From Rhodamnia argentea (taxonomy: Eukaryota > Streptophyta > Magnoliopsida > Myrtales > Myrtaceae): a stretch of DNA of 64,000 nucleotides. Under the pieces are notes generated by a model. It worked only from the letters and a program-made list of their open reading frames with translations, was not told where the DNA came from and made no database searches. Shown here one piece after another: positions 4,142 to 61,910 of the stretch. The position numbers were made by a program, and so were the translations under genes. The first letter of the stretch is position 1, and each line of letters begins with the position of its first letter. The DNA is taken from the NCBI RefSeq assembly GCF_020921035.1, contig NC_063150.1:5952001-6016000 (forward strand). The letters are read 5' to 3'.

Positions 4142-4589
4142 CGTGAACGTGCACGGCAGTATTTAACCGCTGTTCCCTTGAGATATTGATGATGTCGGCC
4201 TGAATGTACTGCATAAGAAAGTGCAGCATTTTTTTCCCTTCTTATATGGTTCAATGAAGGAACTTTATAGGCATGCTGAAGTTTTCTTTTTTTGCTCTGC
4301 CTCTCCTGTAAGAGAGCATGATCCTGACTCATCACATGCTAATGCTTTGTACTAGGACTTATAACTAATCTTTAAAGGGATGTTCAAATAAGTTGAAACC
4401 AGATACAAAGTGGTTAGCTCATTTTGAATGGCCAATGTCTGTGAACTTTCCAGATTGTTTAGTCTATCTAACTAAATTTAAAGTTCTTCCATCCGGATTT
4501 TTCTTAAGTGGCATATATCAGTTCTTCACACGATAGAGCAAGATAATGAGACTTGGTTTGATTGCGGGACTCCTAATTCTATAGCGTAC

Positions 4590-20512: not shown

Positions 20513-22776
20513 ATGAAGCCATCAGGTAATATATGGATTCGGCGCCAACAGTGTCCATGTGGAGATTGGAAGTGTTACATCAAATCTGATGGAGATGATC
20601 TGCCATCGGTGAGCTCCCAGCCTGCCAAGGAGAAGACACTATCATTGCCAACCTCAGAAGCTGTCTTTACTCCTTATGTAGGCCAAATTTTCACGACTGA
20701 TGATGAAGCATTTGAATACTACAGTAATTTTGCTCGAAAAAATGGATTTTCAATTAGAAAAGCACGCTCAACAGAAAGCCAAAATTTAGGAGTTTATAGG
20801 AGAGATTTTGTTTGTTATCGATCTGGGTTTAACCAGCCAAGGAAGAAGGCAAATGTCGAGCACCCCAGGGATAGAAAATCAGTACGGTGTGGATGTGATG
20901 CAAAATTGTATCTGACAAAGGAAATTGTTAACAATGCCACACAATGGTACGTTTCACAGTTCAGTAATGTTCATAATCATGAATTATTGGAGGATGACCA
21001 AGTTCGTCTGCTTCCAGCTTATCGGAAGATACAAGAGGCCGATCAGGAGCGCATCCTTCTGCTATCCAAAGCTGGGTTTCCTGTGAATCGAATAGTGAAG
21101 CTCCTGGAAATAGAAAAAGGGCTGCAACCTGGGCAATTACCCTTTATTGAAAAGGATGTCAGGAATTTTGTTCGAACTTGTAAGAAGACGGTCCAAGAAA
21201 ATGATGCTTTGCTTAATGAGAAGAGGGAGAGTGATGTGATGGAACTTCTTGAGGCGTGCAAACGTATGACAGAGAAGGATGCCGATTGTGTTTATGATTA
21301 TACTACTGATGAGAATGAAAAAGTTGAAAATATTGCGTGGTCATATGGACATTCTTCACGTGCTTTCACTGCTTTTGGAGATGTTGTTACTTTTGATACC
21401 TCTTATAGATCGATTACCTATGGGTTGCTACTTGGTATCTGGTTTGGTATTGATAATCATGGGAAGGCGGTTTTCTTGGGGTGCGTGTTGTTGCAGGAGG
21501 AAAGTGCCCATGCATATTCATGGGCCTTACAGGTTTGTCGAACATAAATCCTTGTGATTCATAAGCACGCTGTTTTCGTATGTCTCCTCATGATTTCTTG
21601 TTTTGGGCAGACATTTGTCCGGTTTATGAGGAGAAGACATCCGCAAACAATTTTGACCGATCTAGATTCTGGGCTTAGGGATGCCATTGCTAGAGAGTTG
21701 CCCAACACCAAGCATGTCATAAGTATATGGCATGTCCAGTCCAAATTATCTAGTTGGTTCTCTTTGACTCTTGGATCACAGTATGCAGAGTTCAAAGCCG
21801 AGTTGGATACATTATGCCAATTGGAGAGCATGGATGAATTTGAACTTAAATGGAATCATGTCATAGCTCGGTTTGGACTTGTTGCTGATAAGCACATAGC
21901 TCTGCTCTTCTCTTATCGGGCTTCATGGCCATTGTCAATGATTAGAGGAAATTTTGTGGCTCGTGCCATGACAGCAGAGTATTCAAAATCAGTGGATACA
22001 TTTGTGAAAAAGATACTAACTTCTGAGGCTTGCTTGCACATGTTCTTTGAGCTGGTATGGTTATTTAAAGTGGTCATGTCTCATGCTCTCTGTCCTTTTT
22101 ATGTTATCGCTTTCGAATTTGCTAATTCAAATTGGTTGTTCTATTTTCTGGACTTTTTCAGGTTGGAGTAGCTTCTAGGTCTGTAAATCAAGCTGCTGAA
22201 AATCTTCAGTACGTGCATATGAAAACATGCATGCCCATTGAAGAACATGCTCAGAGTATTCTCACTCCTTATGCCTTTAAGGTCTTGCAGAATGAAATGA
22301 TTCTCTCTCTGCAATATGCGATGACTGAAATGGCCAATGGATCATATCTTGTGCAGCACTTCAAAAAACTGGATAGAGAGTGTCTCGTAATTTGGACACT
22401 GGAAGATGAGCTCATACGTTGTTCCTGCAAGGAATTCGAGCATTCTGGATTACTATGCAGGCACTCAATTCGAGTTCTCGTGGCAAAGAACTACTTCCAA
22501 CTCCCTGAAAAGTATTTTCCACTTCGTTGGCGGCTGGTGAGTTCTTTAGTCCCAGTGGATGATGACAATGTTCCAAGAAGCAGCAATGATTGCGTCCAAG
22601 CCTTCAATTCATTAGCTGCGTCTTTATTGACTGAATCCTTAACATCCAAGGAACGGTTCAATTATGTTAACCGAGAACTCAGTAGTCTGATTGATCGTGT
22701 TAGGGATATGCCGGCTGATGATGACTCTGCTGCAAATATGGCACTGAACAATGTGAGTGAATCTTTTCAATGTTAA
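20513..22776 (+). CDS. FRS10: FAR1-RELATED SEQUENCE 10-like protein (FHY3/FAR1 family)
   Basis: Nuclear regulator derived from a Mutator-like transposase. Three exons (20513-21532, 21611-22054, 22162-22776) with phase-0 GT-AG introns give about 692 residues. The N-terminus IWIRRQQCPCGDWKCYI is a hallmark of FRS10-type members. Next come a FAR1 DNA-binding domain at about 68-159 (FVCYRSG, RCGCDAKL, HNHELL zinc ligands), a MULE-transposase-like domain (VVTFDTSYR with Asp 295, then a second Asp in TILTDLDSG), and a SWIM zinc finger CSC...C-R-H at about 575-589. Unlike FHY3 and FAR1, the role of FRS10 is poorly known. The ATG at 20513 starts the conserved N-terminus. The last codons are uncertain: a GTGAGT at 22753 could be a donor that would change only the final few residues. 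Confidence 0.92.
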
Positions 22777-23465
22777 CGGTGCCTTATACAGTTGATGATA
22801 TAAAATTACCTGGTCAATCCGCGTGAGGGGTCTCATCACATTCTAAGCGGAAAGCTGTGAAGGCGCAGGTGAGAAATGGATGGGAAACATTCTTTTTTGA
22901 GGCTGGTTGAAGGAATTGATCTGGCAAGTTGTAGTTTTCCGATAGTACAGAATTAACAGTTGGAAATTTTTTTAGGGGGGCCTCCACTGTGAAAAGTCTA
23001 TGGGAATTTAACTGGCAATGTCCGGGTCGACGAGGTGACTGTCTTGCACTAGTCGGTGTAAATGCACTTGTACATTGCACGTGCGAATTTTAGCGGGAAA
23101 AGAGAGAGACGGTGGATCTAAACGGCCTACTCAGTTGTACATATCCATACTTTGTGTGACAATATACTGGAATTCTTAGTTTGCTGAAGCCTTTTCATGG
23201 ATGCATATCGCCGATTCTTCATGATGCCGACTATCCGATACGGTTTCATGAACTCAGGTGATCAAAAAAAGGAAAGTATGGTGAAAATCACACATACCCA
23301 TTTCGCATCAACTCGCGGACTTTGAATCTGAGCAATCAAAATGTAGACAGTCTTGGCGTGTGGCAGAGTCAAAAGAACTATAAATTGTCGCTAACCGGAA
23401 GACCTGTAAGTCAACACAGAAGTTGCGTTGAAGTTTCTTTCTCATTTCGCGGTGTAAGCATAGGG
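22777..23465. other. Spacer before the segmental duplication
   Basis: Contains the 3' flank of the FRS10-like gene and unremarkable sequence. No gene, repeat or structural RNA is recognised. It ends at the left boundary of duplication unit A. Confidence 0.4.
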
Positions 23466-24089
23466 AAAAATCTTTGCGTTCACACAGCAGGAAAAAGGAG
23501 GATTCGGACATAGCTTCGTACAGTACACGGGAGACCAAGACCGAAAGACATCTAATAAAAGAACAATTTTTTTGTCTGAATGAGTGTGACAAGTTGTTTC
23601 TTTATTGTAATGTTCTTAAAGCAGCTGGGAAATACTACCGTCTAAAGAACGAACACTATATAGTTGGTTGCCAGAGTGCTCTGGCTTTCCACCAATGAAA
23701 AGAGATGCTTCAGAGCATGTCTCATGAAAGAAAGATGGAACATTATACATGATAGTATGACATGTAGTTCAACGATCTCGAGCTAGAGCGAAAATTTTCA
23801 CGGACGCTTATAATGATATCGCATTGGCCGAACCACGCATCTTAGCCTTCGGTTAAGATCGATTATGAGCCATGGTTCGATGTCGATAAAGAGATGAAAT
23901 GTTGGTCCAAAGCAAAAATAAATCACAGTTGTAAATGCAGAAGCTTCTCTGTAGATATATTCCATAATATCCCTTTTAGACCAAGACAACCAAGAAGGCT
24001 TGTGAGCCACAGTCCTCCAAGAAGAAAAAAAATCTAGGCAAAAGAAAGTACGTTTTTAGAACTTCCAAATTACATCTGGTATTAGGGAG

Positions 24090-24857
24090 CTACAAGATTT
24101 CGACATCGAAAAGTTCTCCTTTCATTTTCTTTATGAATTCGTCGCATTTTCTGTTCAATTCGTCTATGCTTAGCTCCCCATGTGCTTCGCCGTCGTCACC
24201 ATTGTCGTCGTCCTCGATAACTGCTCGATCAATGATCATCCTGAGCTCACTTGGTTGCTCTTGCATTGCCTGTTCAGTGATCAAGCATTCATCTCTGCTC
24301 AACTCATCCTCAATTTCATCATCATCATCATAATCATGACTCGTCACAGTAATAGCCAGCTCACTTCCTTGTTCTTGAACTTCATCTGTCTGAATCAAGA
24401 ACTCTCCCTTGATAGCCATTGGAAGCATTTCTTCAGCATCTGTTGTTCTTCTTCTCCTTCTCTCCATCAGTCCATTCGAGATATCACCACCATCTCTGTC
24501 GAACCGAGGAACGATACGCGCGGTCTGTGGACCAGAAGGAGCAACGCCAGACCGTCCGGTCTCGATCAGGCCGGAGCTCCTGACGATGATCACCAAGATC
24601 CCGTTGCAGAGCAAGAACATGTAGTTCTTGCTGGGGGTGTGGATGAGAGACTGCAGCTCTGCGAAATACGCAGAGAAATGAAAGCTCCCGAAGGAGTGGA
24701 AGCAAAGATGGACGAGGAGAGGCGAGAAGAGGAGCAGCAACATCCCGGTGAAGATTGAGACTGAGACCATGATTTGGATGGTTCTCCTCTGGAATTTGGA
24801 ATCAGTGGACAGGCTCGGACATGGGTTGTGATCTTGGTGATGCTTCACAAGCTCCAT
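24090..24857 (-). CDS. DUF761-type membrane-anchored protein, copy A
   Basis: Encodes 255 residues. The MELVKHHQDH start at 24857 is preferred over an in-frame upstream ATG (24929), because that ATG is only about 30 bases from a TATA box and is followed directly by a stop in copy B. Order of parts: two hydrophobic segments (about residues 28-54, and a shorter one near 75-92), a basic linker with RRRRR, an acidic middle with a run of Asp, and a C-terminal ELNRKCDEFIKKMKGEL motif of the DUF761 (cotton vascular) type. Proteins of this layout are plant-specific and mostly uncharacterised; function is unknown. Copy B has a longer Asp run from extra CAT/ATC triplets. Probably expressed, since both copies keep open frames. 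Confidence 0.8.
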   Translation of the reverse strand: MELVKHHQDHNPCPSLSTDSKFQRRTIQIMVSVSIFTGMLLLLFSPLLVHLCFHSFGSFHFSAYFAELQSLIHTPSKNYMFLLCNGILVIIVRSSGLIETGRSGVAPSGPQTARIVPRFDRDGGDISNGLMERRRRRTTDAEEMLPMAIKGEFLIQTDEVQEQGSELAITVTSHDYDDDDEIEDELSRDECLITEQAMQEQPSELRMIIDRAVIEDDDNGDDGEAHGELSIDELNRKCDEFIKKMKGELFDVEIL

Positions 24858-24956
24858 TAAGAGAAGAAACGATTGGAGAGAAGGAGATGATGCAACAAGA
24901 TGGGAAAGTGCGTGGCTTTTGGCTTGCATTTACACTGAGTGCATGCATCGCCCTTG

Positions 24957-24964
24957 TTTATATA
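24957..24964 (-). promoter_or_regulatory. TATA box of DUF761-type gene A
   Basis: TATATAAA on the minus strand about 100 bases upstream of the chosen start codon. It is conserved in position in copy B at 32533-32540. Confidence 0.55.
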
Positions 24965-26472
24965 GGACTCAAAAGTCATCAGGTCAATCTCGAGGAAAAA
25001 GTGAAATAAAGAACCGGTCAATTGAAGGATAGATTCGACCAAAAAAAAAAAAATTGAAGGATAGATGAATTTTACATATCTAACCTTGCTTGATTTTTTG
25101 CGGCATGTTATTTTATATTTTTTTACTTGGTACAATTTTTTTTTGTCAAACATGGTAATATAATCGACTCACAAGAGCTATCGACGGAATGCCTGGTGAG
25201 CTCATCGATCATGAGTTTTCGATGGGCGGACTCTAGGTGAAGTATATGATGCATGGCGATGATCGATCAAACTCTAAACATGCACAAAAGTTGAAGATCG
25301 ATCGAAGTAGGTTCCATCGACCGAGGGATAGTCGTAATTAAAGAATTGGGAGCAGTCAAGATACTTAGAAGTTCTTGGGGAGAAATATTAAGATGTGATA
25401 ATGAAAATGAGCATTTAAAGATACATCACGAATCAAAGAAAAAAAGCATTCAAACAGCGCGTACAAAAATCACGAGCAATCAAGAGACGACAGGAGAAAT
25501 CATTAGGGGTTTGCCCTAGTAGCCATCCTTCTCACTTGAAAAGGGAGAGGTAGGGATTTCGATTCCCCACCTTCTCGGGGAGTTGAAGATGGAGACAAGT
25601 GAGTGAGGAAACGAGGTTTCGTAATCTATACAAGGCACATAGCGCACACAGTGTGGTTTGTATAATAGAATATGATAGAATATAACTATACTTAAAAAAA
25701 AAAATGCTACAAGAGAAGACAATAACATATTAGACTTTAACCCTGAATATAAATAAAAATAATCATTCGTCATAGATCGGGTTTCTCGATTCCAGCACTT
25801 CACTCTCTTTGTAAAAGCTTTTTAGTGGCATATTGTAAGCTTTTGTTTTGGCTACGCACTCTAGTCATCTCCATTAATTTTAGTTTATTGAATAAGTACG
25901 ACTTCCGAGAATGTAAGCTATCCGTTCCAAATGCAATAGAAGTTTCAATCAATTTTTTTCACAAAATCCTTCAAGCTTCAAGGCATGTTATAATTCATTT
26001 GCCCTTTGAACTCGAAATCGACTTTGACAGTTCAATTGGTCATCAATCATCCTCAATCGAACTTTAATTACTAGTCGAGATCATTAAAAAAGAAAAAAGA
26101 AAAAAAAAGACACCGGCATTTTTGACATGAATTATGAAATTAATTTGACCGTGACAAAAGCTGATTACTGTGATTAAAAGTGGAAAAGTCCCCATTCTTG
26201 AAATTCACCAGGAAAGTAATCATGTCGAGCGACTTGGGCCGCGGCTGGAGGTCCAAACATTGAAGTGGTCTGACAAGGCTGTACGTGTTAGAAAGAATGA
26301 GTCAATGGTCTTTCGTTAGTCACAAATTTCACGCGGTTAGATCGGAATCGGACCCGGGTCTGCCATCCCGCCCTTTAGCCGCCAGGCCGGTGGATACTCA
26401 TGACCTATTTAGTAACAATTCTATTTTCGATAACAAATTTTAAATAAAAAATAAATTTTTCTAATTTTGTTA
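24965..26472. other. Intergenic part of unit A
   Basis: AT-rich spacer shared with unit B. Near 26340-26400 a conserved GC-rich stretch reads, on the minus strand, as GGTCCGATTCC with upstream GC-rich sequence. This resembles a Pol III B box, but no tRNA fold could be built. Nothing else is recognised. Confidence 0.35.
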
Positions 26473-26881
26473 GGAAAAAAGCCATCAAAAATCCTAAACT
26501 ATGCCCGCTGTGATACATTTACCCCAAACTTTTATTTGTGACGCAAAAAACCCTAAACTTTTACGTATGTGACACATTTACCCCAAACTTTTTGTTATGA
26601 CACTAAAAACTCCAAACTTATATTCGTGTGACACATTTACCTCAAAATTTTGAGGTAAATGTGTCACATGAATATAAGTTTGGGATTTTTTATGTCACAA
26701 AAAAATATTTTGAGGTAAATATGTCACACAGGTATAAGTTTAGGATTTTCAATGTCACAAGAAAAAGTTTGGGGTAAAAATGTCACGAGTAGAAGTTTGA
26801 AATTTTTGGTGTCACAAAAAAAAAGTTTAGGCTAAATGTGTCACAGTTGGCATAGTTCGGGGTTTTTGGTGATTTTTTCCC
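26473..26881. mobile_element. Mutator-type foldback MITE (409 bp), present only in unit A
   Basis: Long terminal inverted repeats of up to about 200 bases each (left end GGAAAAAAGCCATCAAAAAT, right end complementary to GGGAAAAAATCACCAAAAAC), so nearly the whole element can fold back. Internally both arms repeat short motifs of the kind AAACTTT...TGTGACACATTTACC. It is flanked by the identical 9-bp sequence ATTTTGTTA at 26464-26472 and 26882-26890. Unit B has the single, uninterrupted ATTTTGTTA at 33995-34003. A 9-bp target duplication is the Mutator superfamily signature. Non-coding. Confidence 0.88.
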
Positions 26882-27244
26882 ATTTTGTTAATGAGAATAA
26901 ATAAATAATTTTTTTTCACTTCTTATTTCTGTTTCAAATCTGTTCTCTATCATCAATCGAATCACTGTTTGCGACTCAGAAAATACATTTTACATGCAAC
27001 GAATATTGTAAAGAGACAAATTCCACGCATCAAATGATTACCAAGCGATCTGCTATCGAGAATAGAAAAATTAATTGATGTTACCAAATAGATTTCTAAA
27101 TTCACGTCTTTATTCTTTTACAATCCCGACCCCAAAATCCACAAAAAAATAAAAACAAGATTTAAGCCATTTATTTTCATTTTGGCCTTCCTTTCTTGAT
27201 TTTTCTCCACGCCACTCGGCATCGGCCCATTTTAGTATTTCTCA

Positions 27245-29218
27245 TCAAATAGCGCAAGATATCCACAGGGGCTCCTCAAACTGCCCTCTCAGCTTATCCT
27301 CGTCACAGCCATCACCGCTGCCCGATCTCAGATCACTGGGGCCCGCGTCGTCCGTCGGGTGCCACGCGGGCGTCCCATTCTCGAACCCGTTCCACGTCAG
27401 CCTCCGGAGCCCGCTCCCGTCCAACCTTGCCACGTATAGCTCCCCGTACGGCTGGAACTGGTTGGGCAACGACACTGGCTCCGCCGTCACGCCGCCCAAG
27501 TTCGCCGTGAACAGCAGCCACTCCCCGTCCCTGCTGAAGCACACGTGATTGATCCTCTCCCGTTCAACCTCGGGCGACCCCGCCGGTCCCGCCACGTGTG
27601 CCCTCTTCAGGTCGGACCCGTCCGGTCTAATGAGATAGATGCTAAATACGCTCACATCGTCCGGGTTGTGCCGGTTCGAAGAGAAGGCTATGAGGTCACC
27701 GTTGGGCGACCACGACGGCATCGTGTCGATCCACGGTCCGTCCGTCAGCTGACGGATCCCACCGCCAAACTCACCGTTCGCGGCGTCGACGATGTACAAG
27801 TTCTTGTGGCCAGTCCGACCGGACCGGAACACGAGCCACTTGCCATCGGGAGAGCACGAGGGGAAGGCGTTATTCCCCGAGTCCTCCCTCGTGAGCACCT
27901 TCAAGTTACTTGTGACGTTGCCCTCCGGACCGGATAAGTCGAACTCGATCCGAGCAATCTGAACCGTCGTTTTCGGCGAATCGAAGATGGGTCCGATCGA
28001 GGTGTACACGACGTTTTGCTCGGTGGGGCTCCATGAGTTGTAGAACGCGGTCCGATCCTTAATCAGCGTCCACCGCCTCGATCCGTCCGACTGAACGATC
28101 TTCACTCCGCCGTTGACGTCAGCCTCGAAGTCGTGGTTGAAGGCTATGAGCTGCCCGTCAGGGGAAGAAGAAGGGAACGCGCCGTTCAGTCTCAGCATCC
28201 GGAGCCCCCTGATGGGCGACGCGACCGGGTCGAGATTGGGGACCCTTGACTCGCCCCCAGTCGACTCGCCTCGGAACCGGTGGTACCCGATGTACCGTGA
28301 CCCGGCAGACACGAAAGGGTTGTAGTGGTGGAAGTTCGGGTTCAACGGTTCGGTGACGGGGACGAAGGACTCCGACCCGGCGTCGAAAATCTCGATGTGC
28401 CGGAAGCTCTTGCCTCGCCGCCGTGTCGCGACGGCGATTTTGTTGGAGCCGGGCATGGCGGCCGGAGTGAAGCAGTGGACCCCTGGAGGAGTGACCCGGG
28501 TCGGAGCCAGCGGGAACCCAGAGGAGTCCGTGTCTGGGGCGAATTCGAATTCGACCCGGAAAATGCTCCACCACCCGTCCTCCGCCTTCCGGTGGAAGTA
28601 GACGACGGAGTCGCCGGACCAGGTGGGCCAGCCCCCGGACTCCGCCACGACGATGCGCTCCTTCGGCTCGGATTCCCGGAACACGACGATGTCCGTATTC
28701 AGGGCGTGGAACTCACCGCCCCAATGGCGCGACCCATAGGACGCGACAGCTACGAACTTTCCCGACTGCGAGACCGCCGGACTGTAGTCGACGGACCCGT
28801 ACGGGGTCAACCTGGCAATTTGGCTACCCTCCAGGTCGGCCGAGTAGAGAGCGGACCAGCTCGCGAACGGCTTGTTGGGCTCCTCGTGAGCCGAGATGAA
28901 GTAGAGCCGACCGTCCCTGAGGACGGGCCGATCGTGGAAGAGGCTGCCCGGGGCGGAAGGCAGCAGGTCGGGCTGGGAGAAGCCGGATCGGGCGAGGTAG
29001 ACCCGGGGGCAGCCGGTCCGCTCGGAGACGAAGACGACGGCTTCTGGGCCATCGTCGCCCTCGTCGCCGGCGGAGGCGAATTGGGCGTTGTAGTTGATGG
29101 AGAGGCCGTCGGTGAGGCGGCGCTCGCGGCGGGAGGTGAGGTCGAGGGAGAAGACGTCGAAGCCGTAGTAGGGGCGGCCGACGGTGGTGAAGAGGACGGT
29201 GCCTCTGGGCTCGTCCAT
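27245..29218 (-). CDS. TolB/DPP6-N-terminal-like beta-propeller protein, copy A
   Basis: Intronless frame of 657 residues starting MDEPRGTVLFTT. It consists of repeated WD40-like (PD40) blades with the SPDG-type turn: SSSPDGQLIAF, SCSPDGKWLVFRSGR and SWSPNGDLIAFSSNRH. Arabidopsis has similar intronless proteins annotated as TolB-related or DPP6 N-terminal-like (At1g21670/At4g01870 type). No peptidase catalytic domain follows the propeller, and no signal peptide is evident. Molecular role is unknown. The coding sequence is strikingly GC-rich against the AT-rich surroundings, so long antisense frames arise within it. Copy B has the same length with about two dozen amino-acid differences and no frame damage, so both copies appear to be maintained. 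Confidence 0.85.
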   Translation of the reverse strand: MDEPRGTVLFTTVGRPYYGFDVFSLDLTSRRERRLTDGLSINYNAQFASAGDEGDDGPEAVVFVSERTGCPRVYLARSGFSQPDLLPSAPGSLFHDRPVLRDGRLYFISAHEEPNKPFASWSALYSADLEGSQIARLTPYGSVDYSPAVSQSGKFVAVASYGSRHWGGEFHALNTDIVVFRESEPKERIVVAESGGWPTWSGDSVVYFHRKAEDGWWSIFRVEFEFAPDTDSSGFPLAPTRVTPPGVHCFTPAAMPGSNKIAVATRRRGKSFRHIEIFDAGSESFVPVTEPLNPNFHHYNPFVSAGSRYIGYHRFRGESTGGESRVPNLDPVASPIRGLRMLRLNGAFPSSSPDGQLIAFNHDFEADVNGGVKIVQSDGSRRWTLIKDRTAFYNSWSPTEQNVVYTSIGPIFDSPKTTVQIARIEFDLSGPEGNVTSNLKVLTREDSGNNAFPSCSPDGKWLVFRSGRTGHKNLYIVDAANGEFGGGIRQLTDGPWIDTMPSWSPNGDLIAFSSNRHNPDDVSVFSIYLIRPDGSDLKRAHVAGPAGSPEVERERINHVCFSRDGEWLLFTANLGGVTAEPVSLPNQFQPYGELYVARLDGSGLRRLTWNGFENGTPAWHPTDDAGPSDLRSGSGDGCDEDKLRGQFEEPLWISCAI

Positions 29219-29330
29219 GTGATAGAAGGAAGCGAGCGACGGAGTTGGTGAGCGAGATAGTTAGTGAGAGAGAGCGAGTTGCGGAGGGCAGTGAAGATGG
29301 TGGTGGGCCTGGTGGCTGTAGTGGGGTGGA

Positions 29331-29341
29331 GCTATATAAAG
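29331..29341. promoter_or_regulatory. TATA-like element upstream of beta-propeller gene A
   Basis: GCTATATAAAG, about 115 bases upstream of the start codon at 29218. As read on the coding (minus) strand it is CTTTATATAGC. The matching site in unit B has become TGTAAATAAAG (36440-36450), so the TATATA core is lost there. Confidence 0.4.
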
Positions 29342-30245
29342 AATCGGCGAGTGGATAGGTTTGATCATGGCATGGCTTGGTTGACACGACTTGCGTCACT
29401 TGGAAGATCAGGGGGTGTAATTAAATTATTAAAAGGAGGAAAATTTCGGATCGGATAACGATGGGGGAAAGCGAAATCGGAACAGGAAAGCTTTAAAGAA
29501 ATGTATCCGCTGTCTTCAACTGCCAAGTGCTTCTTTGGGAAGAACCACGGCGAAGAGGGAGACCAAGTGAAGAGTGCCAGAACGATTTGGAATTTTCCGT
29601 TGATTTGTGTCTGCGGACAGAATGGCTGCAGACGTTAACCGTCGATGTTCGCCTTGTGTTTCTAGTTCGAAAGTGAGAATGGCAAATCAATAGAATTCAT
29701 GGTATCGAAATGGGAATTTTGCCTTGCACCTTTGGAGTGTTTTCTAAGAGTTAGTTCCTAGAACACGTATCTCCGACTTCTCGATAGTTGTCGGGTTAAA
29801 ACCTCTTTTAAGTAGATGGAAGAACGATAGACGATTACGATGAGTTAGGACGAAAGAATTGTCCCAGAAGAACCCAACACTTAGTTTTAACGGTTGAGAA
29901 AGTTATCAATCATGAGGATCTCAGTGAACCACCTTTGTTACCAGAAACAAACATGATATCCATCGAAGACTTGGGAACATTAGCCTTAGCATTAGCCTCT
30001 ATTGGGTCCAAGCTGAGGTGTTCAAGTTGGACTCGACCCCAGATACATTGGTCCATCAACTCAGTATCAGGGAATCTAATCGTGAAAGCGCGTTCACATT
30101 CAAAAACTTCAAACTCTGTAGTGTCTGTTCTCAGACCAAAAGTTTACACATTCCTCAGCAAATCCAACGACATAAATCCCTTGATTCAAATGAAGAAGTA
30201 GAAGATACTCCCATGATTCCACAATTGAGATGTAGACAGAATTCA
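29342..30245 (-). other. Spacer of unit A with an unrecognised minus-strand reading frame
   Basis: Between the beta-propeller gene and the TRM13 fragment. Around 29930-30140 the minus strand has an open stretch (…FEVFECERAF, FPDTELMDQCIWG, LEHLSLDPIEA…) that looks protein-like and is tandemly duplicated in unit B. I do not recognise it and cannot find its ends; it may be an exon or a fragment of a lost gene. Confidence 0.3.
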
Positions 30246-30951
30246 TCACAATCCAGTTTGCCTCTTGGCAATCAACGAATGGTTCTCCGGCGAGATGTTT
30301 TGGGGAACGTATTTGACAAGTTGCGCGTCCAGTCCGCGTCCCTTCAGCCACATTAGTCTCCCGATGTCGATGATCTGCTTGCACATGAACCCCAGCACAG
30401 CCCTTTCTACTGCTTCCATCTTTCCGTTGGTGTCTTTAACAGGGGTCGCATCCTCTCCATCTTCTTCCTTCTCACTTAAGGCAAAAAGTACAGAGACTTG
30501 CAAAATAATAGTGTCGATTCGTAGGGTCAATGTTACAATCAAAGATGTTAATCGCGATCGAGCAATTGCAAGTTAAGAGTTTCAGATGATTACATAGTTG
30601 GAAGATGAGATCTTGGATCCTTGACATCAGAAAGATCCGAACCGTGATCAGCATCCACTGCCCAGCTGGTAAACCATGTGATGGCATGGAACTCTTCCTT
30701 CTTGATACCCAAATTTGAGAAATATCTCTTATCTGGAGAGAGAATTCGCAAGGTCAGCTTTAACCGGTCAATCATACAAAAACATGCATCTTAAAAATGA
30801 GCAATCTGAAAACAGAATGATAGATTACTTATGTAGTGTTTCCACTGGCAAAGATGATGGCAACATGTTGCAATAGCTAGGCCTTGAATGGGGCATTTCT
30901 GAACATCATCAATCATATTTCTTTCTAATAAGCAACATCTTAGAGTCAAAT
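30246..30951 (-). pseudogene. TRM13 3' fragment (exons 7-9 only), unit A
   Basis: Three exons equivalent to the last three of the complete TRM13 gene are present with the same splice sites: 30829-30951, 30594-30732, and 30246-30474 with stop. Exons 1-6 are missing, because the duplication boundary at 31070 falls in the intron before exon 7. The retained exons are still open, as expected for a recent duplicate. Without the methyltransferase N-terminal and SAM-binding part, it cannot make an active enzyme. Readthrough transcription or a role as a conversion donor is possible but unproven. Confidence 0.9.
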
Positions 30952-31653
30952 CTGCACCAAGAGTTAGATCAGGTTTATCATGTAGAAACGTTGCTTCCTT
31001 TAAAAAGCTGATAAAGATGAAGAGTGACTATGAATCCATCTTCATGTTTCTTGGGCTGGCATTATCTGAAAAATCTTTGCGTTCACTTAGCAGGGGAGAC
31101 CAAGACCGAAAGACTTCTAATAAAAGAACAATTTTTTTGTCTGAATGAGTGTGACAAGTTGTTTCTTTATTGTAATGTTCTTAAAGCAGCTGTGAAATAC
31201 TACCGTCTAAAAAACGCACACTATACAGTTGGTTTCCAAAGTGCTCTGGCTTTTCACCAATGAAAAGAGATGCTTCAGAGCATGTCTCATGAAAGAAAGA
31301 TGGAACATTACACAGGATAGTATGACATGCAGTTCAACGATCTCGAGCTAGAGCGAAAATTTTCACGGACACTTATAATGATATCGCATTGGCCGAACCA
31401 CGCATCTTAGCCTTCGGTTAAGATCGATTATGAGCCATGTTTCGATGTCGATGAAGAGATGAAATGTTGGTCCAAAGCAAAAATAAATCACAGTTGTAAT
31501 GCAGAAGCTTCTCTGTAGATATATTCCATAATATCCCGTTTAGACCAAGACAACCAAGAAGGCTTGTGAGCCAGAGTCCTCCAAGAAGAAAAAAAATCTA
31601 GGCAAAAGAAAGTACGTTTTTAGAACTTCCAAATTACATCTGGTATTAGGGAG

Positions 31654-32433
31654 CTACAAGATTTCGACATCGAAAAGTTCTCCTTTCATTTTCTTTATGA
31701 ATTCGTCGCATTTTCTGTTCAATTCATCTATGCTTAGCTCCCCATGTGCTTCGCCGTCGTCACCATTGTCGTTGTCGTCGATAACTGCTCGATCAATGAT
31801 CATCCTGAGCTTACTTGGTTGCTCTTGCATTGCCTGTTCAGTGATCAAGCATTCATCTCTGCTCAACTCATCCTCAATTTCATCATCATCATCATCATCG
31901 TCATCATCATCTTGACTCAGCACAGTAATCGCCAGCTCACTTCCTTGTTCTTGAACTTCATCTGTCTGAATCAAGAACTCTCCCTTGATAGCCATTGGAA
32001 GCATTTCTTCAGCATCTGTTGTTCTTCTTCTCCTTCTCTCCATCTGTCCATTCGAGATATCACCACCATCTCCGTCGAACCGAGGAACGATACGCGCGGT
32101 CTGTGGACCAGAAGGAGCAATGCCAGACCGTCCGGTCTCGATCAGGCCGGAGCTCCCGACGATGATCACCAAGATCCCGTTGCAGAGCAAGAACATGTAG
32201 CTCTTGCTGGGAGTGTGGATGAGAGACTGCAGCTCCGCGAAATACGCAGAGAAATGAAAGCTCCCGAAGGAGTGGAAGCAAAGATGGACGAGGAGAGGCG
32301 AGAAGAGGAGCAGCAACATCCCAGTGAAGATTGAGACTGAGACCATGATTTGGATGGTTCTCCTCTGGAATTTGGAATCAGTGGACAGGCTCGGACATGG
32401 GTTGTGATCTTGGTGATGCTTCACAAGCTCCAT
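31654..32433 (-). CDS. DUF761-type membrane-anchored protein, copy B
   Basis: Encodes 259 residues, beginning MELVKHHQDH. Same layout as copy A: two hydrophobic segments, basic linker, acidic region and C-terminal NRKCDEFIKKMK motif. The Asp tract is longer through repeated ATC/CAT triplets (around 31878-31910), a replication-slippage difference between the two copies. Substitutions elsewhere are few (for example V/G and R/Q changes in the linker). A TATA box sits about 100 bases upstream (32533-32540, minus strand). Function is unknown. Confidence 0.8.
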   Translation of the reverse strand: MELVKHHQDHNPCPSLSTDSKFQRRTIQIMVSVSIFTGMLLLLFSPLLVHLCFHSFGSFHFSAYFAELQSLIHTPSKSYMFLLCNGILVIIVGSSGLIETGRSGIAPSGPQTARIVPRFDGDGGDISNGQMERRRRRTTDAEEMLPMAIKGEFLIQTDEVQEQGSELAITVLSQDDDDDDDDDDEIEDELSRDECLITEQAMQEQPSKLRMIIDRAVIDDNDNGDDGEAHGELSIDELNRKCDEFIKKMKGELFDVEIL

Positions 32434-34362
32434 TAAGAGAAGAAACGATCGGAGAGAAGGAGATGATGCAACAAGATGGGAAAGTGCGTGGCTTTTGGCT
32501 TACATTTACACTGAGTGCATGCATCGCCCTTGTTTATATAGGACTCAAAAGTCATCAGGTCAATCTCAAGGAAAAAGTGAAATAAAGAACCGGTCAATTG
32601 AAGGATAGATGAATTTTACATATCTAGCCTTGCTTGATTTTTTGCGGCATGTTATTTTATTTTTTTTACTTGGTACAATTTTTTTTTTGTCAAACATGGT
32701 AATATAATCGACTCACAAGACCTATCGACAGAATGCCTGGTGAGCTCATCGATCATGAGTTTTCGATGGGCGGACTCTAGGTGAAGTATATGATGCATGG
32801 CGATGATCGATCAAACTCTAAACATGCACAGAAGTTGAAGATCAATCGAAGTAGGATCCATCGACCGAGGGATAGTCGTAATTAAAGAATTGGGAGCGGT
32901 CAAGATACTTAGAAATTCTTGGGGAGAAATATTAAGACGTGATAACAAAAATGAGCATTTAAAGATACATCACGAATCAAAGAAAAAAAGCATTCAAACA
33001 GCGTGTACAAAAATCACGAGCAATCAAGATACGACAAGAGAAATCACTAAGAGTTTGCCCCAGTGGCCATCCTTATCATTTGAAAAGGGAAAGTTAGGGA
33101 TTTCGATTCCCCACCTTCTCAAGGAGTTAGAGATGGAGACAAGTGAGTGAGGGAACGGGGTTTCGTAACCTATACACGGCACATAGCGCATACGGTGTGG
33201 CTTGCATAATAGAATATAATAGAATATAACCATACTTAAAAAAAATACTACAAGAGATGACAACAACATATCGGACTTTAACCTTGAAGATAAATAAAAA
33301 TAATCATTCGTAATAGATTGGGTTTCTCAATTCCAACACTTCACTCTCTTTATAAAAGCTTTGTGGCATCTTGTAAGCTTTTGTTTTGGCTACGCACTCT
33401 AGTCATCTCCATTAATTTTAGTTTATTGAGTAAGTACGGCTTCCGAGAAGGTAAGCTATCCGTTCCAAATGCAATAAAGTTTCAATCAATTTTTTCACAA
33501 AATCCTTCAAGCTTCAAGGTATGTTATAATTCATTTCCCCTTTGAGCTCAGAAATCGACTTTGACAGTTCAATTGGTCATCAATCATCCTTAATCGAACT
33601 TTAATTACTAGTCGAGATCATTAAAAAAGAAAAAAAAAAGACGTGGGCATTTTTGACATGAACTATGAAATTAATTTGACCGTGACAAAAGCTGATTACT
33701 GTGATTAAAAGTGGAAAAATCCCCATTCTTGAAATTGACCAGGAAAGTAATCATGTCGAGCGACTTGGGCCGCGGCTGGAGGTCCAAACATTAAAGTGAT
33801 CTGACAAGGTTGTACGTGTTAGAAAGAATGAGTCAATGGTCTTTCGCTAGTCACAAATTTCACGCGGTTAGATTGGAATCGGACCCGGGTCTGCCATCCC
33901 GCCCTTTAGCCGCTAGGCGCGTGGATACTCATTACCTATTTAGTAACAATTCTATTTTCGATAATGATTTTTAAATAAAAAATATTTTTTTAAAATTTTG
34001 TTAACAAGAATAAATAAATAATTTTTCTTTTTACTTCTTATTTCTATTTCAAATTTGCTCTCCATCATCAATCAATCAAATCACTGTTTGAGACTCGGGA
34101 AATACATTTTACGTGCAGCGAATATTGTAAAGAGACAGATTCCGCGCATCAAACGATTACCGACTGATTTGCTCTCGAGAATAGAAAAATTAATTGATGT
34201 TACCAAATATATTTCTAAATTCACGTCTTTATTCTTTTAGAAACCCGACCCCAAAATCCACAAAAGATAAAAACAAGATTTAAGCCATTTATTTTCATTT
34301 TGGTCTTCCTTTCTTGATTTTTCTCCACGCCACTTGGCATCGGCCCATTTTAGTATTTCTCA
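32434..34362. other. Intergenic part of unit B with empty MITE site
   Basis: Homologous to 24965-27244 but without the Mutator-type MITE. The uninterrupted target ATTTTGTTA is at 33995-34003. The GC-rich B-box-like stretch of unit A is also present here (about 33870-33935). No gene is recognised. Confidence 0.5.
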
Positions 34363-36336
34363 TCAAATATCGCTAGATATCCATAAGGGCTCCTCAAACT
34401 GCCCTGTCAACTTATCCTCGTCACAGCCCTCACCGCTGCCCGATCTCAGATCACTGGGGCCCGCGTCGTCCGTCGGGTGCCACGCGGGCGTCCCATTCTC
34501 GAACCCGTTCCACGTCAGCCTCCGGAGCCCGCTCCCGTCCAACCTTGCCACGTATAGCTCCCCGTACGGCTGGAACTGGTTGGGCAACGACACTGGCTCC
34601 GCCGTCACGCCGCCCAAGTTCGCCGTGAACAGCAGCCACTCCCCGTCCCTGCTGAAGCACACGTGATTGATCCTCTCCCGATCAATCTCGGGCGACCCCG
34701 CCGGTCCCGCCACGTGCGCCCTCTTCAGGCCGGACCCATCCGGTCTAATGAGATAGATGCTAAATGCGTTCACATCGTCCGGGTTGTGCCGGTTCGAAGA
34801 GAAGGCTATGAGGTCACCGTTGGGCGACCACGACGGCATCGTGTCGATCCACGGTCCGTCCGTCAGCTGACGGATCCCACCGCCAAACTCACCGTTCGCG
34901 GCGTCGACGATGTACAAGTTCTTGTGGCCAGTCCGACCGGACCGGAACACGAGCCACTTGCCATCGGGAGAGCACGAGGGGAAGGCGTTGTTCCCCGAGT
35001 CCTCCCTCGTGAGCACCTTCACGTCACTTGTGACGTTGCCCTCCGGACCGGATAAGTCGAACTCGATCCGAGCAATCTGGACCGTCGTTTTCGGCGAATC
35101 GAAGATCGGTCCGATCGAGGTGTACACGACGTTTTGCTCGGTGGGGCTCCATGAGTTGTAGAACGCGGTCCGAACCTTAATCAGCGTCCACCGCCTCGAT
35201 CCGTCCGACTGAACGATCTTCACTCCGCCGTTGACGTCAGCGTCTAAGTCGTGGTTGAAGGCTATGAGCTGCCCGTCAGGGGAAGAAGAAGGGAACAAGC
35301 CGTTCAGCCTCAGCATCCGGAGCCCCTTGATGGGCGACGCGACCGGGTCGAGATTGGAGACCCTTGACTCGCCCCCAGTCGACTCGCCTCGGAACCGGTG
35401 GTACCCGATGTACCGTGACCCGGCAGACACGAAAGGGTTGTAGTGGTGGAAGTTTGGGTTCAACGGTTCGGTGACGGGGACGAAGGACTCCGACCCGGCG
35501 TCGAAAATCTCGATGTGCCGGAAGCTCTTGCCTCGCCGCCGTGTGGCGACGGCGATTTTGTTGGAGCCGGGCATGGCGGCCGGAGTGAAGCAGTGGACCC
35601 CTGGAGGAGTGACCCGGGTCGGAGCCAGCGGGAACCCGGAGGAGTCCGTGTCTGGGGGGAATAAAAATTCGACCCGGAAAATGCTCCACCACCCGTCCTC
35701 CGCCTTCCGGTGGAAGTAGACGACGGAGTCGTCGGACCAGGTTGGCCAACCCCCGGACTCCGCCACGACGATGCGCTCCTTCGGCTCGGATTCCCGGAAC
35801 ACGACGATGTCCGTATTCAGGGCGTGGAACTCACCGCCCCAAGGGCGCGACCCATAGGACGCGACAGCTACGAACTTTCCCGACTGCGAGACCGCCGGAC
35901 TGTAGTCGACGGAGCCGTAAGGGGTCAACCTGGCAATTTGGCTACCCTCCAGGTCGGCCGAGTAGAGAGCGGACCAGCTCGCGAACGGCTTGTCGGGCTC
36001 CTCGTGAGCCGAGATGAAGTAGAGCCGGCCGTCCCTGAGGACGGGCCGGTCGTGGAAGAGGCTGCCCGGCGCGGAAGGCAGCAGGTCGGGCTGGGAGAAG
36101 CCGGACCGGGCGAGGTAGACCCGGGGGCAGCCCGTCCGCTCGGAGACGAAGACGACGGCTTCTGGGCCATCGTCGCCCTCGTCGCCGGCGGAGGCGAATT
36201 GGGCGTTGAAGTTGATGGAGAGGCCGTCGGTGAGGCGGCGCTCGCGGCGGGAGGTGAGGTCGAGGGAGAAGACGTCGAAGCCGTAGTAGGGGCGGCCGAT
36301 GGTGGTGAAGAGGACGGTGCCTCTGGGCTCGTCCAT
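34363..36336 (-). CDS. TolB/DPP6-N-terminal-like beta-propeller protein, copy B
   Basis: Intronless, 657 residues, same length as copy A. The MDEPRGTVLFTT start at 36336 is chosen because it matches copy A. The frame happens to stay open for 121 more codons upstream, into an hAT element, but that part is leader and transposon sequence, not protein-like. Visible blades are SSSPDGQLIAF, SCSPDGKWLVF and SWSPNGDLIAF. About two dozen residues differ from copy A, including a cluster at EFEFAPDTD/EFLFPPDTD and the last residues. The promoter is altered: the TATA-like core of copy A is changed, and an hAT element is inserted 130 bases upstream of the start codon. Expression may therefore differ from copy A. 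Confidence 0.85.
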   Translation of the reverse strand: MDEPRGTVLFTTIGRPYYGFDVFSLDLTSRRERRLTDGLSINFNAQFASAGDEGDDGPEAVVFVSERTGCPRVYLARSGFSQPDLLPSAPGSLFHDRPVLRDGRLYFISAHEEPDKPFASWSALYSADLEGSQIARLTPYGSVDYSPAVSQSGKFVAVASYGSRPWGGEFHALNTDIVVFRESEPKERIVVAESGGWPTWSDDSVVYFHRKAEDGWWSIFRVEFLFPPDTDSSGFPLAPTRVTPPGVHCFTPAAMPGSNKIAVATRRRGKSFRHIEIFDAGSESFVPVTEPLNPNFHHYNPFVSAGSRYIGYHRFRGESTGGESRVSNLDPVASPIKGLRMLRLNGLFPSSSPDGQLIAFNHDLDADVNGGVKIVQSDGSRRWTLIKVRTAFYNSWSPTEQNVVYTSIGPIFDSPKTTVQIARIEFDLSGPEGNVTSDVKVLTREDSGNNAFPSCSPDGKWLVFRSGRTGHKNLYIVDAANGEFGGGIRQLTDGPWIDTMPSWSPNGDLIAFSSNRHNPDDVNAFSIYLIRPDGSGLKRAHVAGPAGSPEIDRERINHVCFSRDGEWLLFTANLGGVTAEPVSLPNQFQPYGELYVARLDGSGLRRLTWNGFENGTPAWHPTDDAGPSDLRSGSGEGCDEDKLTGQFEEPLWISSDI

Positions 36337-36466
36337 CGGACAGGAGGAAGCGAGCGACGGAGTTGGTGAGCGAGATAGTGAGTGAGAGAGTTCGAGTTGC
36401 GGAGGGCAGTGAAGATGGCGGTGGCGGTAGTGGGGTGGATGTAAATAAAGAAACGGCGAGAGTGGA

Positions 36467-37140
36467 TAGGGGTGTGCAAACTTGACCGGACCGGCCCGGA
36501 CCGGCCGAGTTGGTCCGGTCTTTGAGGTTGATGGTCCGGTCCCCGGTCTCAATAAATGGGACTGGTGATTGGGCGGTCCGGTCCTCGGGTTTCTTGTATT
36601 GGGGGCAGACCGGGCCAACCTGGACCGGACCGCCAATAATATATAATTATTTACATATAAATATATACAATTGCAAAAAAAAAATTGAAAACAAAACAAA
36701 ATATTAAAAGTCTACTGCCCATTTTTTTCCAACCTTGTACGGTCGCACTCTCCTCCTCAAGACTCTCTTTTTAGTCTTATTTTCCATCTTGTTTTTGGTC
36801 ATCTTTTCTCTCTGCAGGCTTTTTTGAGTGCGGTTGGTGATGTTTTTATCATGTAATGGATGGATTTGGTATTGAATTCGAACATTTTGGTCAAGTTCGT
36901 CGATTATAAAAGTCATTGCGAGTCGCTATGTTTTTACCATGGCATAGTTTATTAAGTTGACTAGATTTTCAATAGTTAGTGGTCCTACTGGGCCGAGATC
37001 GAGACCGGACCGGGACCGGCCCGGATCGGAACCGCCGTTCCCGATCCGGTCCTTGGTCTCGAAATATTGGGGACCGGGACTACAGTCCGGTCCCCGGTTC
37101 CATGCCGGTATCGGACCGGCCTGGACCATGCACACCCCTA
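36467..37140. mobile_element. Non-autonomous hAT-type transposon (674 bp) upstream of beta-propeller gene B
   Basis: Perfect terminal inverted repeats TAGGGGTGTGCA (36467-36478) and TGCACACCCCTA (37129-37140), with an exact 8-bp target duplication AGAGTGGA at 36459-36466 and 37141-37148. Unit A has the unoccupied site, GGCGAGTGGATAGG, near 29348-29362. CCGGTCC/GGACCGG subterminal repeats fill both ends. No transposase is encoded. The exact inverted repeats and target duplication point to a recent insertion, after the segmental duplication. Confidence 0.93.
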
Positions 37141-37148
37141 AGAGTGGA

Positions 37149-38180
37149 TAGGTTTGATCGTGGCATGGATTGGTTGACACGATTTGCGTCACTTGGAAGA
37201 TCTGGGGGTGTCATTAAATTATTGAAAGGAGGAAAATTTCGGGTCGGATAACGATGGGGGAAAGCGAAATCGGACCAGGAAAGCTTTAAAGAAATGTTTC
37301 TGCTTCTTCAACTGCCAAGTGCTTCTTTTGGAATTTTCCGTTGATTTGTGTTTGTGGACGGAATGGCTGCAGACGTTAACCGTCGATGTTCGCCTTGTGT
37401 TTTTAGTTCGAAAGTGAGAATGGCAAATCAATAGAATTCATGGTATCGAAATGGGAATTTTGCCTCGCACCTTTGGAGTGTTTTCTAAGAGTTAGTTCCT
37501 AGAAAACGTATCTCCGACTCCTCAATAGTTGTCGGGCTAAAACCTCTTTTAAGTATATGGAAGAACGATAGATGATTACGATGAGTTACGACGGAAGAAT
37601 TGTCCCAGAAGAACATATTGCTGCCCCCAACACTTAGTTTTAACGGTTGAGAAAGTTATCAATCATGAGGATCTTAGTGAACCACCCTTGTTACCAGAAA
37701 CAAACATGATACCCATCGAAGACTTGGGAACATTAGCCTTAGCATTGGCCTCCATTGGGTCCAAGCTGAGGTGTTCAAGTTGGACTTGACCCCAGATACA
37801 CTGGTCCATCAACTCAGTATCAGGGAATCTAATCTTGAAAGCACGTTCACATTCAAAAACTTCCAACTCTGTAGTGTCTGTTCTCAGACCATGGAAGGCT
37901 TGGGAACATTAGCCTTAGCATTAGCCTCAGCCTCCATTGGGTCCAAGCTGAGGTGTTCAAGTGGGACTTGACCCCAGAAACACTGGTCCATCGACTCAGT
38001 ATCAGGGAATCTAATCTTGAAAGCGCGTTCACATTCAAAAACTTCAAACTCTGTAGTGTCTGTTCTCAGAGCAAAAGTTTACACATTCCTCTGCAAATCC
38101 AACGACATAACTCCCTTGATTCAAATGAAGAAGTAGAAGATACTCCCATGATTCCACAATTGAGATGTAGACAGAATTCA
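37149..38180. repeat. Unit B spacer with 176-bp direct tandem duplication (37723-38074)
   Basis: The segment starting CTTGGGAACATTAGCC at 37723 is repeated from 37899 with a few differences. Unit A has it once (about 29968-30143). The duplicated piece includes the unrecognised minus-strand reading frame with FPDTELMDQCIWG. The junction lies in CTCAGACC/ATGGAAGG. The rest is homologous to unit A. Confidence 0.85.
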
Positions 38181-41129
38181 TCACAATCCAGTTTGCCTCT
38201 TGGCAATCAACAAATGGTTCTCCGGCGAGATGTTTGGGGGAACGTATTTGACAAGTTGCGCATCCAGTCCGCGTCCCTTTAGCCACATTAGTCTCCCGAT
38301 GTCGATGATCTGCTTGCACATGAAGCCCAGCACAGCCCTTTCTACTGCTTCCATCTTTCCGATGGTGTCTTTCACAGGGGTCGCATCCTCTCCATCTTCT
38401 TCCTTCTCACTTAAGGCAAAAAGTACAGAGACGTGCAAAATAATAGTGTTGATTTGTAGGGTCAATGTTACAATCAAAGACGTTAATCGCGATCGAGCAA
38501 TTGCAAGTTAAGAGTTTCAGATGATTACATAGTTGGAAGACAAGATCTTGGATCCTTGACATCAGAAAGATCCGAACCGTGATCAGCATCCACTGCCCAG
38601 CTTGTAAACCATGTGATGGCATGGAACTCTTCCTTCTTGATACCCAAATTTGAGAAATATCTCTTATCTGGAGAGAGAATTCGCAAGGCCAGCTTTAACC
38701 GGTCAATCATACAAAAACATGCATCTTAAAAATGAGCAATCTGAAAACAGAATGATAGATTACTTATGTAGTGTTTCCACTGGCAAAGATGATGGCAACA
38801 TGTTGCAATAGCCAGGCCTTGAATGGGGCATTTCTGAACATCATCAATCACATTTCTTTCTGATAAGCAACATCTTAGAGTCAAATCTGCACCAAGAGTT
38901 AGATCAGGTTTATCGTGTAGAAACGTTGCTTCCTTTAAAAAGCTAATAAAGATGAAGAGTGACTGTGAATCCATCTTCATGTTTCTTGGGCTGGCATTAT
39001 CTGAACAAGCATTCTAATCACCTGTTGCCGGACCACAGAGATGCTTGCCAATAGCCAAGAATGGAGATCCCCGTAAAGACTCGACAGCATGCAAATTTAA
39101 ATCCTCAACTGCAAAAGAAGCAACTCCAATGTAATCTTGTCCATTTCACATTTCAAAGCGGTAGCAGTGATGATTGAAATTAAATTATGCATATCTCTAA
39201 AACTACACACTGAAGTCAATTCAAGAAATTGCCTACATGGTCAGCATATCTGGTAGAGTTGTATACTAGTTCACAAAATCTTAGCAACTAAACAGCGAAA
39301 CAACTCTCGTCAGATTATTAGCATTCAGTATTGGTCTCTGAATGAATGACAGAATGGTAGAGGCATCTCCTTTCTGACCGGTTATAAATCAGCTCGGACC
39401 AGAAATACCACTCTAGAGTTATATACAGAAAACAATACGGCAAACTTCGATTGAAGACCTTCTAAAAAGAACTTCACTGTAGGGTGTGACAATTCTGCAA
39501 TAAAGCTAATATCTGTCGCCAGGGACATGCCTTCAGCACTAATCAATTATGCGGTGTAATTATTGCAACCATAGCTATAGCCTGGCTAGCAAATACTAAC
39601 GAAGGACAACAATCACTCACACTGTGAAGACATCTCCGTCACCAACAATAGCCATAGCCTAGCTAGCAAATGCTAACAAAGCAAAATAATCCCTCATCAT
39701 AAGAAGGCAACTCCCTGTCATGAAACAATAGATTTGCAATGTAGATGCTTCAATTAGTTGGTTTTATATGAGCGGAGCATACATCAAGAGAGAATTAGAT
39801 GCTCCGCTAAAATATTAAACACTATAATCAAATAAATATTCAATGAATCAGTTTTCCTGGCAGGCTAAAACGTGAAAGCACTACTGATTTACCAATAATT
39901 TCGGGAAATGCAATCTAGGATACTGAAGAACTTGAAAATCTTACTGTCAATTCTCAAGCGCTCTAATAACAAGCTCTCTTTTTGTCGCAAGGATCGATCA
40001 GCCTAGAAGTAGCATTTGAATGACATAAAACAACAAATAAAATGCAGCTCAAGACCAGGCAGAATCTGAAAAAAGTAATTGAAGTTTCAATGGAGACAAT
40101 GTACTGTTCTAATAAAACTCAATACTCACCTTAAGCTTGTATGCCTTCCGCTCAACCAAGAAGACTCTATTAATCCCATAACAGTCAGCAAGCATTTGCG
40201 TCAAATAACCTCTTCCTGCTCCAAACTCAACAACGGCAGGAACATCATTCTTATTTTCATCATTCACACATTGTCCCTCATTATCACACTTATCCCTCAT
40301 ATCAAATCTCTTCAAAACCCCATGCTCCACCATGTTCCCCAGAATCGACGCCTGTTGCATCACATGTTTCTCCTGAAATGGTAATTTTCTGCAAAGAACA
40401 ACTCCTATCACCATTGAGTGCACGCATGATAGCAAAATAACTGAGAACATCTCAAGATACCTATCAACTTGTCCCTTGATCCAGATGTCACAAGCATCTG
40501 TGACCTTGAACGAGTCTCTAATATCCCCGCATGTAGACTCGTGCAGAGACTTAATCTTGTCAATCAGACTACAAAACTCCGGCACACTCAGACCATACAC
40601 TGCACTCCTCTTCATCTCCGATGAAACATTATCCGGATGCCCCAGCGACGAATTACTCAACGGCACACCATCCTCGTCCTCATTACCAGCATTGATACCC
40701 TTCTGGTAGAAAGGTTGCAAGGACAAGGACTGAGTTTGTTTGAGCAAAGGGCATCTCTTGATGTGCCCTTCCAAGTTATCTTGAAGCACAGAGCTTCTCA
40801 GACCAAGCACGCAAAGCCCAACAAAAATCAACAGCAAGAAGCATAAAAAAGCGAACTTGAACATATACTCATTTCAAAGACACAAAAGGGCAAAGGGGAA
40901 TGGAAGATTTACTGAGATGGGTCGAGTGGGCATGGTATCCACTGAGCATCGGACCTCGGAGTGTGATTGCCACAGAACCTGGTGATGAGCATTTCTTGGC
41001 AAAATCAGTTCAAATTGAAGAGAAACCCAAGAGAAAGAGAAGATTCAGAGCTTACGGTGAATCGTTGAGAGGGGTGTTGGCGCAGAATCTGTTCTTCTTG
41101 GGCAGCCAGAACTTGCAGCGAGCCGCCAT
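38181..41129 (-). CDS. TRM13: tRNA methyltransferase TRM13 homolog (tRNA:m4X modification enzyme), nine exons
   Basis: TRM13 2'-O-methylates position 4 of certain tRNAs (Gly, His, Pro in yeast) using SAM. Exons, in transcription order: 41056-41129, 40913-40978, 40461-40796, 40130-40388, 39945-40002, 39022-39108, 38764-38886, 38529-38667, 38181-38409. All junctions are GT-AG and phases agree, giving about 456 residues. The N-terminus has a CCCH-type finger (RCKFWLPKKNRFC...CGNH), then a CHHC finger (PCPLDPS...HIKRCPLLKQ). The SAM-binding motif is VVEFGAGRGYLTQML; then KHLCGPATDLTLRC and IATCCHHLCQWKHY, and the C-terminal block GFMCKQIIDIGRLMW. The start is the ATG at 41129 that opens the first finger. 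The right edge of duplication unit B lies in intron 6, so the gene is intact and unit A carries only a 3' copy. Confidence 0.93.
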
Positions 41130-58000: not shown

Positions 58001-58179
58001 TTAATGAGCTGAAACCCGCGAGCCTCGACGGGTGATTTGAGATGGGATTTGGGAATTGGGATTAAAATGGACTTGTCCGACCCATCTCGGTTCTGACCAA
58101 ATTATAATCCAACAAAGCCCAAGCCCAAGTAACCAGCAAAGCCCACGTGTCCTCCTCTCTCTCTCCCCGCCACAAAAAC

Positions 58180-58721
<542 letters not shown>

Positions 58722-60625: not shown

Positions 60626-61910
<1,285 letters not shown>

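Follow-up and report, generated by a model that had tools for sequence, protein, structure and literature searches.

The 64-kb window of the Rhodamnia argentea genome analysed here (the whole stretch of 64,000 nucleotides) contains, between a FAR1-family gene and intron 6 of a TRM13 gene, two adjacent segments, units A and B, that carry the same genes in the same order. On the minus strand and in the direction of transcription, each unit holds exons 7-9 of TRM13, a PD40/TolB-like beta-propeller gene and a DUF4408-like gene. The genes of the two units and of their flanks are as follows:

20507-22776, plus strand, FAR1-family (FRS) gene of the left flank, seen as three ORFs (approximate extent, not a gene model)
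24090-24857, minus strand, DUF4408-like gene of unit A, counted from the MELVKHH methionine
27245-29218, minus strand, PD40/TolB-like beta-propeller gene of unit A, a single ORF of 657 aa
30246-30951, minus strand, orphan TRM13 exons 7-9 of unit A (30829-30951, 30594-30732 and 30246-30474), with an open frame and intact splice sites
31654-32433, minus strand, DUF4408-like gene of unit B, with 4 extra acidic residues
34363-36336, minus strand, PD40/TolB-like beta-propeller gene of unit B, a single ORF of 657 aa
38181-41129, minus strand, TRM13, full gene of nine exons encoding 455 aa, modelled from genomic sequence alone

Both copies of the TolB-like gene match the Pfam family PF07676 (E = 4.4e-18 and 65.2 bits in A, E = 1.3e-17 and 63.7 bits in B). 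The matches of the other duplicated gene to DUF4408 lie below the cut-off of 22 bits in either unit (E = 0.09 and 13 bits in A, E = 0.0063 and 16.7 bits in B), and we name these predicted genes 'DUF4408-like' only. An upstream in-frame ATG of this gene is followed by an open frame in A and by an in-frame stop in B; because this ATG is found near a TATA-like box, we take the later methionine as the probable start. In the left flank, the first and third ORFs of the FAR1-family gene were scanned; the first has the Pfam domains FAR1 and MULE, the third SWIM. The last ORF of this gene ends ~690 bp short of the left edge of the duplication. A preliminary description of this DNA had placed that edge by 'FRS10'; the gene is there, but its assignment is confirmed at the level of the FAR1 family only.

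In the gene model of TRM13, which has introns of the GT-AG type, unit B contributes exons 7-9 and the right flank contributes exons 1-6. Three domains were found by Pfam (PF11722, E = 1.7e-13; PF05253, E = 2.5e-9; PF05206, E = 9.3e-80), and the protein carries the CCCH and CHHC zinc fingers and the TRM13 methyltransferase domain by which a TRM13 protein is recognized. Exon 4 encodes VVEFGAGRGYLTQ, which we take to be the SAM-binding motif. The duplication ends on its right 17-19 nt inside intron 6, so that what unit A has of TRM13 is an orphan tail lacking exon 4 and, with it, this motif. Downstream of TRM13, at its 3' side, there is an ORF in both units (29916-30143 in A, 37669-37908 in B), which in B overlaps a 182-bp tandem repeat. 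As a candidate gene, the ORF of this repeat was rejected, having no Pfam match at E values up to 1.

The limits of the units and the three boundaries, obtained by self-BLAST, alignment and comparison of the exact ends, are:

23465-31067, duplication unit A, 7,603 bp
31068-39002, duplication unit B, 7,935 bp
23465-23467, left parental end, GAA
31068-31070, A/B junction, GAA microhomology without filler bases
39003-39005, right parental end, GAA, in intron 6 of TRM13 (placed with the TRM13 model)

Self-BLAST of the window returns one large block pair (23.5-31.07 and 31.09-39.01 kb), which bears out the head-to-tail tandem arrangement proposed in the preliminary description; the coordinates given there (A, 23466-31070; B, 31071-39005) are correct within 1-3 bp, and GAA can be assigned to either side. 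That two complete genes and three exons of TRM13 are doubled is likewise borne out, all of them being open frames. In a global alignment of 23466-31073 with 31071-39008, the two units are 96.3% identical (6,779 of 7,040 ungapped columns), with 23 gaps, of which the 2-bp gap at the start is an artefact of the chosen end points. Non-coding columns account for 183 differences in 3,807 (4.8%) and for 22 indels, this end effect included; the coding stretches (3,233 bp) have a single indel. Across the genes of the block, Ks between the copies is ~0.03-0.06. With the substitution rates that we assume, this would suggest an age of the order of a few million years for the duplication, and more in a slowly evolving tree.

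Selection on the copies was assessed by the Nei-Gojobori method for Ka/Ks and by the Fisher test for the excess of synonymous over non-synonymous changes. The two TolB-like genes differ with Ks of 0.047 and Ka of 0.018 (ratio 0.37), a synonymous excess with P = 0.001. The corresponding values for TRM13 exons 7-9 are Ks 0.061, Ka 0.019 and Ka/Ks 0.30 (P = 0.035), and those for the DUF4408-like gene, compared over 277 codons from the AKSHALSHL residue, are Ks 0.029, Ka 0.020 and a ratio of 0.71 (P = 0.56). Thus, constraint is evident for the TolB-like gene, weakly indicated for TRM13 and not detected for the DUF4408-like gene. Gene conversion between the units was considered as well. The longest identical tract spans 251 columns, compared with a random mean of 164 (P = 0.026); as it falls within the constrained coding region of the TolB-like gene, we did not take it as conversion.

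The orphan exons of unit A contain no stops and no indels and differ from those of unit B by six amino acids. We compared these values with simulations (3,000 runs per setting) in which unit B served as a proxy of the ancestor, the A copy evolved neutrally and constrained copies had an assumed Ka/Ks of 0.25. With the pooled Ks, a neutral A copy acquired 9.5 amino-acid differences on average, with a probability of 0.15 of six or fewer and of 0.64 of remaining free of stops; with the Ks of TRM13 itself, the mean was 12.8 and the two probabilities were 0.02 and 0.57. Neutral orphan exons would be expected to have ~1.4 indels, as against the zero observed (probability of none, 0.25). Where both copies were constrained, the simulated means were 3.7 differences with the pooled Ks and 5.0 with the gene's own Ks. 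The product of these figures favours two constrained TRM13 copies by a factor of ~6 to 60, according to which Ks is taken. No outgroup structure of TRM13 by which the six differences could be polarized was found in a PDB sequence search, which gave two matches that we took as chance (E = 0.57 and 0.69). We also looked at the Pfam scores as a sign of decay. Exons 7-9 score 144.9 bits in A and 146.8 bits in B, 1.9 bits lower in A, which is the direction expected of a relaxed A copy; yet the TolB-like gene scores 1.5 bits lower in B, so that such gaps are at the level of noise, and this sign was rejected.

One conceivable reading of this constraint is that the orphan exons of unit A are kept by selection, with a small protein or RNA that would serve a purpose in the absence of the SAM-binding half. 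On the same strand, upstream of these exons, lies the DUF4408-like gene of unit B; they might be transcribed by read-through from it and spliced at their intact sites. We consider this highly improbable.

The preliminary description had called the duplication clean. The two copies are indeed head-to-tail units, but they differ by two MITEs, by the 182-bp repeat of unit B and by indels of 38, 32 and 51 bp, all three being stretches of unit A that are missing from B in the alignment. The main unit-specific features are:

23491-23528, stretch of 38 bp close to the left edge, unit A only
26473-26881, MITE of 409 bp, unit A only, a long imperfect hairpin with the 9-bp target duplication ATTTTGTTA on both sides
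36467-37140, MITE of 674 bp, unit B only, with 12-bp terminal repeats TAGGGGTGTGCA and the 8-bp target duplication AGAGTGGA
37713-38073, 182-bp tandem repeat, unit B only, downstream of the TRM13 stop (self-BLAST and alignment)

By the lengths of the target duplications, we take the 409-bp MITE to be of the MULE type and the 674-bp MITE to be of the hAT type. Unit B has the empty site for the former. The site for the latter in unit A lacks 2 bp of the target and is therefore only a near-perfect empty site. The hAT-type MITE, which is rich in CCGGTCC motifs, lies 130 bp from the start codon of the TolB-like gene of B, on its upstream side, and the TATATA motif that precedes the A copy corresponds to TATTTA in B. 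This unit-specific MITE just upstream of a duplicated gene is a candidate cause of a difference in expression and could make the two TolB-like copies diverge in this respect. Divergence around the A-only MITE is among the highest in the block, with many transitions, and we considered MITE-driven methylation decay of one copy. As the C/T changes within 25453-27244 go in both directions (C in A facing T in B at 36 positions, T in A facing C in B at 33), one-sided decay was rejected.

All three boundaries can be read, as the preliminary description had it, with GAA at the left end, at the A/B junction and at the right end. The last of these occupies nt 17-19 of TRM13 intron 6 (exon 6 ends at 39022), in agreement with the earlier placement of the right edge inside this intron. 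Rightwards from the left GAA, the left end and the junction are identical over 19 bp before the first difference, and leftwards none of the first 12 bases agree. Leftwards from the right GAA, the junction and the right end are identical over 40 bp, and rightwards the very first base is different. The parental ends share GAA only, as had been stated: 1-kb stretches centred on the two ends gave a best E value of 1.5 and a longest alignment of 18 bp at 83% identity. A long repeat at both parental boundaries, which the preliminary description had named as evidence against its reading, was thus looked for in these stretches and not found. Among 200,000 random pairs of sites within 20-43 kb, 5.5% share at least 3 bp, and GAA is accordingly suggestive but not strong.

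Adjacent copies in the same orientation, sharp ends, a microhomology of ~1-10 bp and no long homology are marks of a tandem duplication joined by microhomology, and these are found in this block. An orphan gene fragment would further be expected to evolve free of constraint, and in this respect the TRM13 exons of unit A lean against such a duplication. The lack of similarity between the parental ends leaves recombination between long repeats unsupported and fits end joining or template switching. To that extent the mechanism suggested in the preliminary description stands, although neither of its two pathways is proven. In our opinion, the block is probably a fairly recent tandem duplication formed by microhomology-mediated joining or template switching, an event that is ordinary in plants. 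Given the observed structure, breakpoints, gene content and divergence, we propose for its location in the chromosome, its repair pathway and the order of events the following. A single-copy block between the FAR1-family gene and TRM13 intron 6 would have been doubled head to tail in one event, in which a broken or stalled end in this intron may have been joined, via GAA, downstream of the FAR1-family gene on the sister or homologous chromatid. The pathway would be microhomology-mediated end joining or replication template switching, and the outcome a second intact copy of two genes together with a fragment of TRM13 (exons 7-9) without upstream exons or promoter, TRM13 itself remaining whole through unit B. 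Thereafter, the copies would have become different through point mutations, small indels and MITEs inserted separately into each.

Two other ways of duplicating such a block in the chromosome bear on this reading. Non-allelic homologous recombination between repeats flanking the block, which PMC3744419 describes as the prevailing model of how tandem direct duplications arise, would require similarity that is not seen here, as the 1-kb stretches at the parental ends gave no alignment below E = 1.5 and only the 18-bp match described above; it is almost certainly not the source of this block. The presence of a hAT-type MITE in unit B brings in reversed-ends transposition of a pair of hAT elements, by which Ac/Ds makes tandem duplications in maize whose junctions are marked by transposon ends and 8-bp target duplications (PMC3744419). 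We searched for the 12-bp hAT-type terminus with up to two mismatches and obtained seven matches, none at the three boundaries; two were exact and are the MITE's own ends, and five lie elsewhere. An 8-bp target duplication was looked for at the A/B junction and is absent there, and unit A has the near-perfect empty site for the MITE. For the one hAT-type family found here, which is the one covered by the search, these data leave transposition with next to no credence.

Units A and B could also be two haplotypes of one locus that the assembler placed serially (a false heterotype duplication), which we regard as rather unlikely. Their divergence of 3.7% is possible between alleles in a very heterozygous outcrossing plant. 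The orphan TRM13 exons match the TolB-like gene in constraint (Ka/Ks of 0.30 and 0.37, respectively), and constraint on both TRM13 copies is the pattern of two alleles, which keeps this rival alive. The open TolB-like copies with their Ka/Ks of 0.37 count for a tandem duplication, although they are expected of alleles too, and so do the unit-specific MITEs with target duplications set against empty sites, which are possible for alleles as well. Adjacent false duplications have been documented, one of them with three exons of a gene inserted into another (PMC9516828), and the block resembles those described there in having adjacent copies that diverge by a few percent and are partial for one gene. 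It differs from them in that its copies have no intervening gap. A gap between the copies is given as a main mark of false duplications on the same scaffold (PMC9516828), but there is no N at the junction or elsewhere in the 64-kb window. A random join would carry a microhomology such as GAA with the chance of 5.5% given above, and the unit edges are free of variants (19 and 40 matching bases), unlike what we would expect, by our own reasoning, of a linearized haplotype bubble. In our judgement, the gapless microhomology junction outweighs the constraint signal of TRM13.

Seen as a tandem duplication joined by microhomology, the block exemplifies a known kind well and leaves the known picture of tandem duplication unchanged. 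Non-homologous recombination accounts for 52.98% (4,872) of the rice copy-number variants reported in PMC4812662, mobile elements for 44.28% (4,072) and non-allelic homologous recombination for 0.48% (44); in the maize set of PMC5800051, 414 of the 1,028 anchored presence/absence breakpoints have microhomology. The variants attributed to non-homologous joining in these two reports resemble the block in their kilobase scale and in breakpoints that show a few bases of microhomology and lack long homology. They were called from reads or from genome comparison, whereas the evidence here is one sequence with copies ~4% diverged, and the maize set consists of presence/absence variants rather than tandem copies. 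Gene fragments left by tandem duplications that break within genes are well known from Drosophila yakuba (PMC5460883). As in that report, one end of the duplication lies in a gene and a 3' fragment comes to follow another gene that is transcribed in the same direction; the present case differs in that the upstream gene has its own stop codon, so that no chimeric protein is predicted, and in being known from DNA alone. Among the titles listed by literature searches there was none on this locus. The block offers a clean, readable example of the gain of plant gene copies without flanking repeats, and equally a test case of how real tandem copies can be distinguished from haplotypes assembled serially.

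Several other features were observed in the window. At its left end, self-BLAST gave a ~0.65-kb direct repeat of 75% identity (17-655 and 3677-4341), followed by a ~100-bp inverted repeat whose arms (9426-9529 and 10446-10546) are separated by 0.9 kb, share 82% identity and may be the termini of a non-autonomous element. MGAT2 (N-acetylglucosaminyltransferase II; 11942-13225) and a DYW-type PPR protein of 1,065 aa (15255-18449) are each encoded by a single open frame. tRNA genes, sought in the window as landmarks, numbered zero. To the right of the block there are two minus-strand peroxidase genes (PF00141; 44339-45669 and 52442-53813) with 79% DNA identity, of each of which one ORF piece was scanned. 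Farther to the right, two ubiquitin-ribosomal protein S27a fusion genes lie side by side (58149-58732 and 61344-61922) with 94% DNA identity and constitute a second local duplication.
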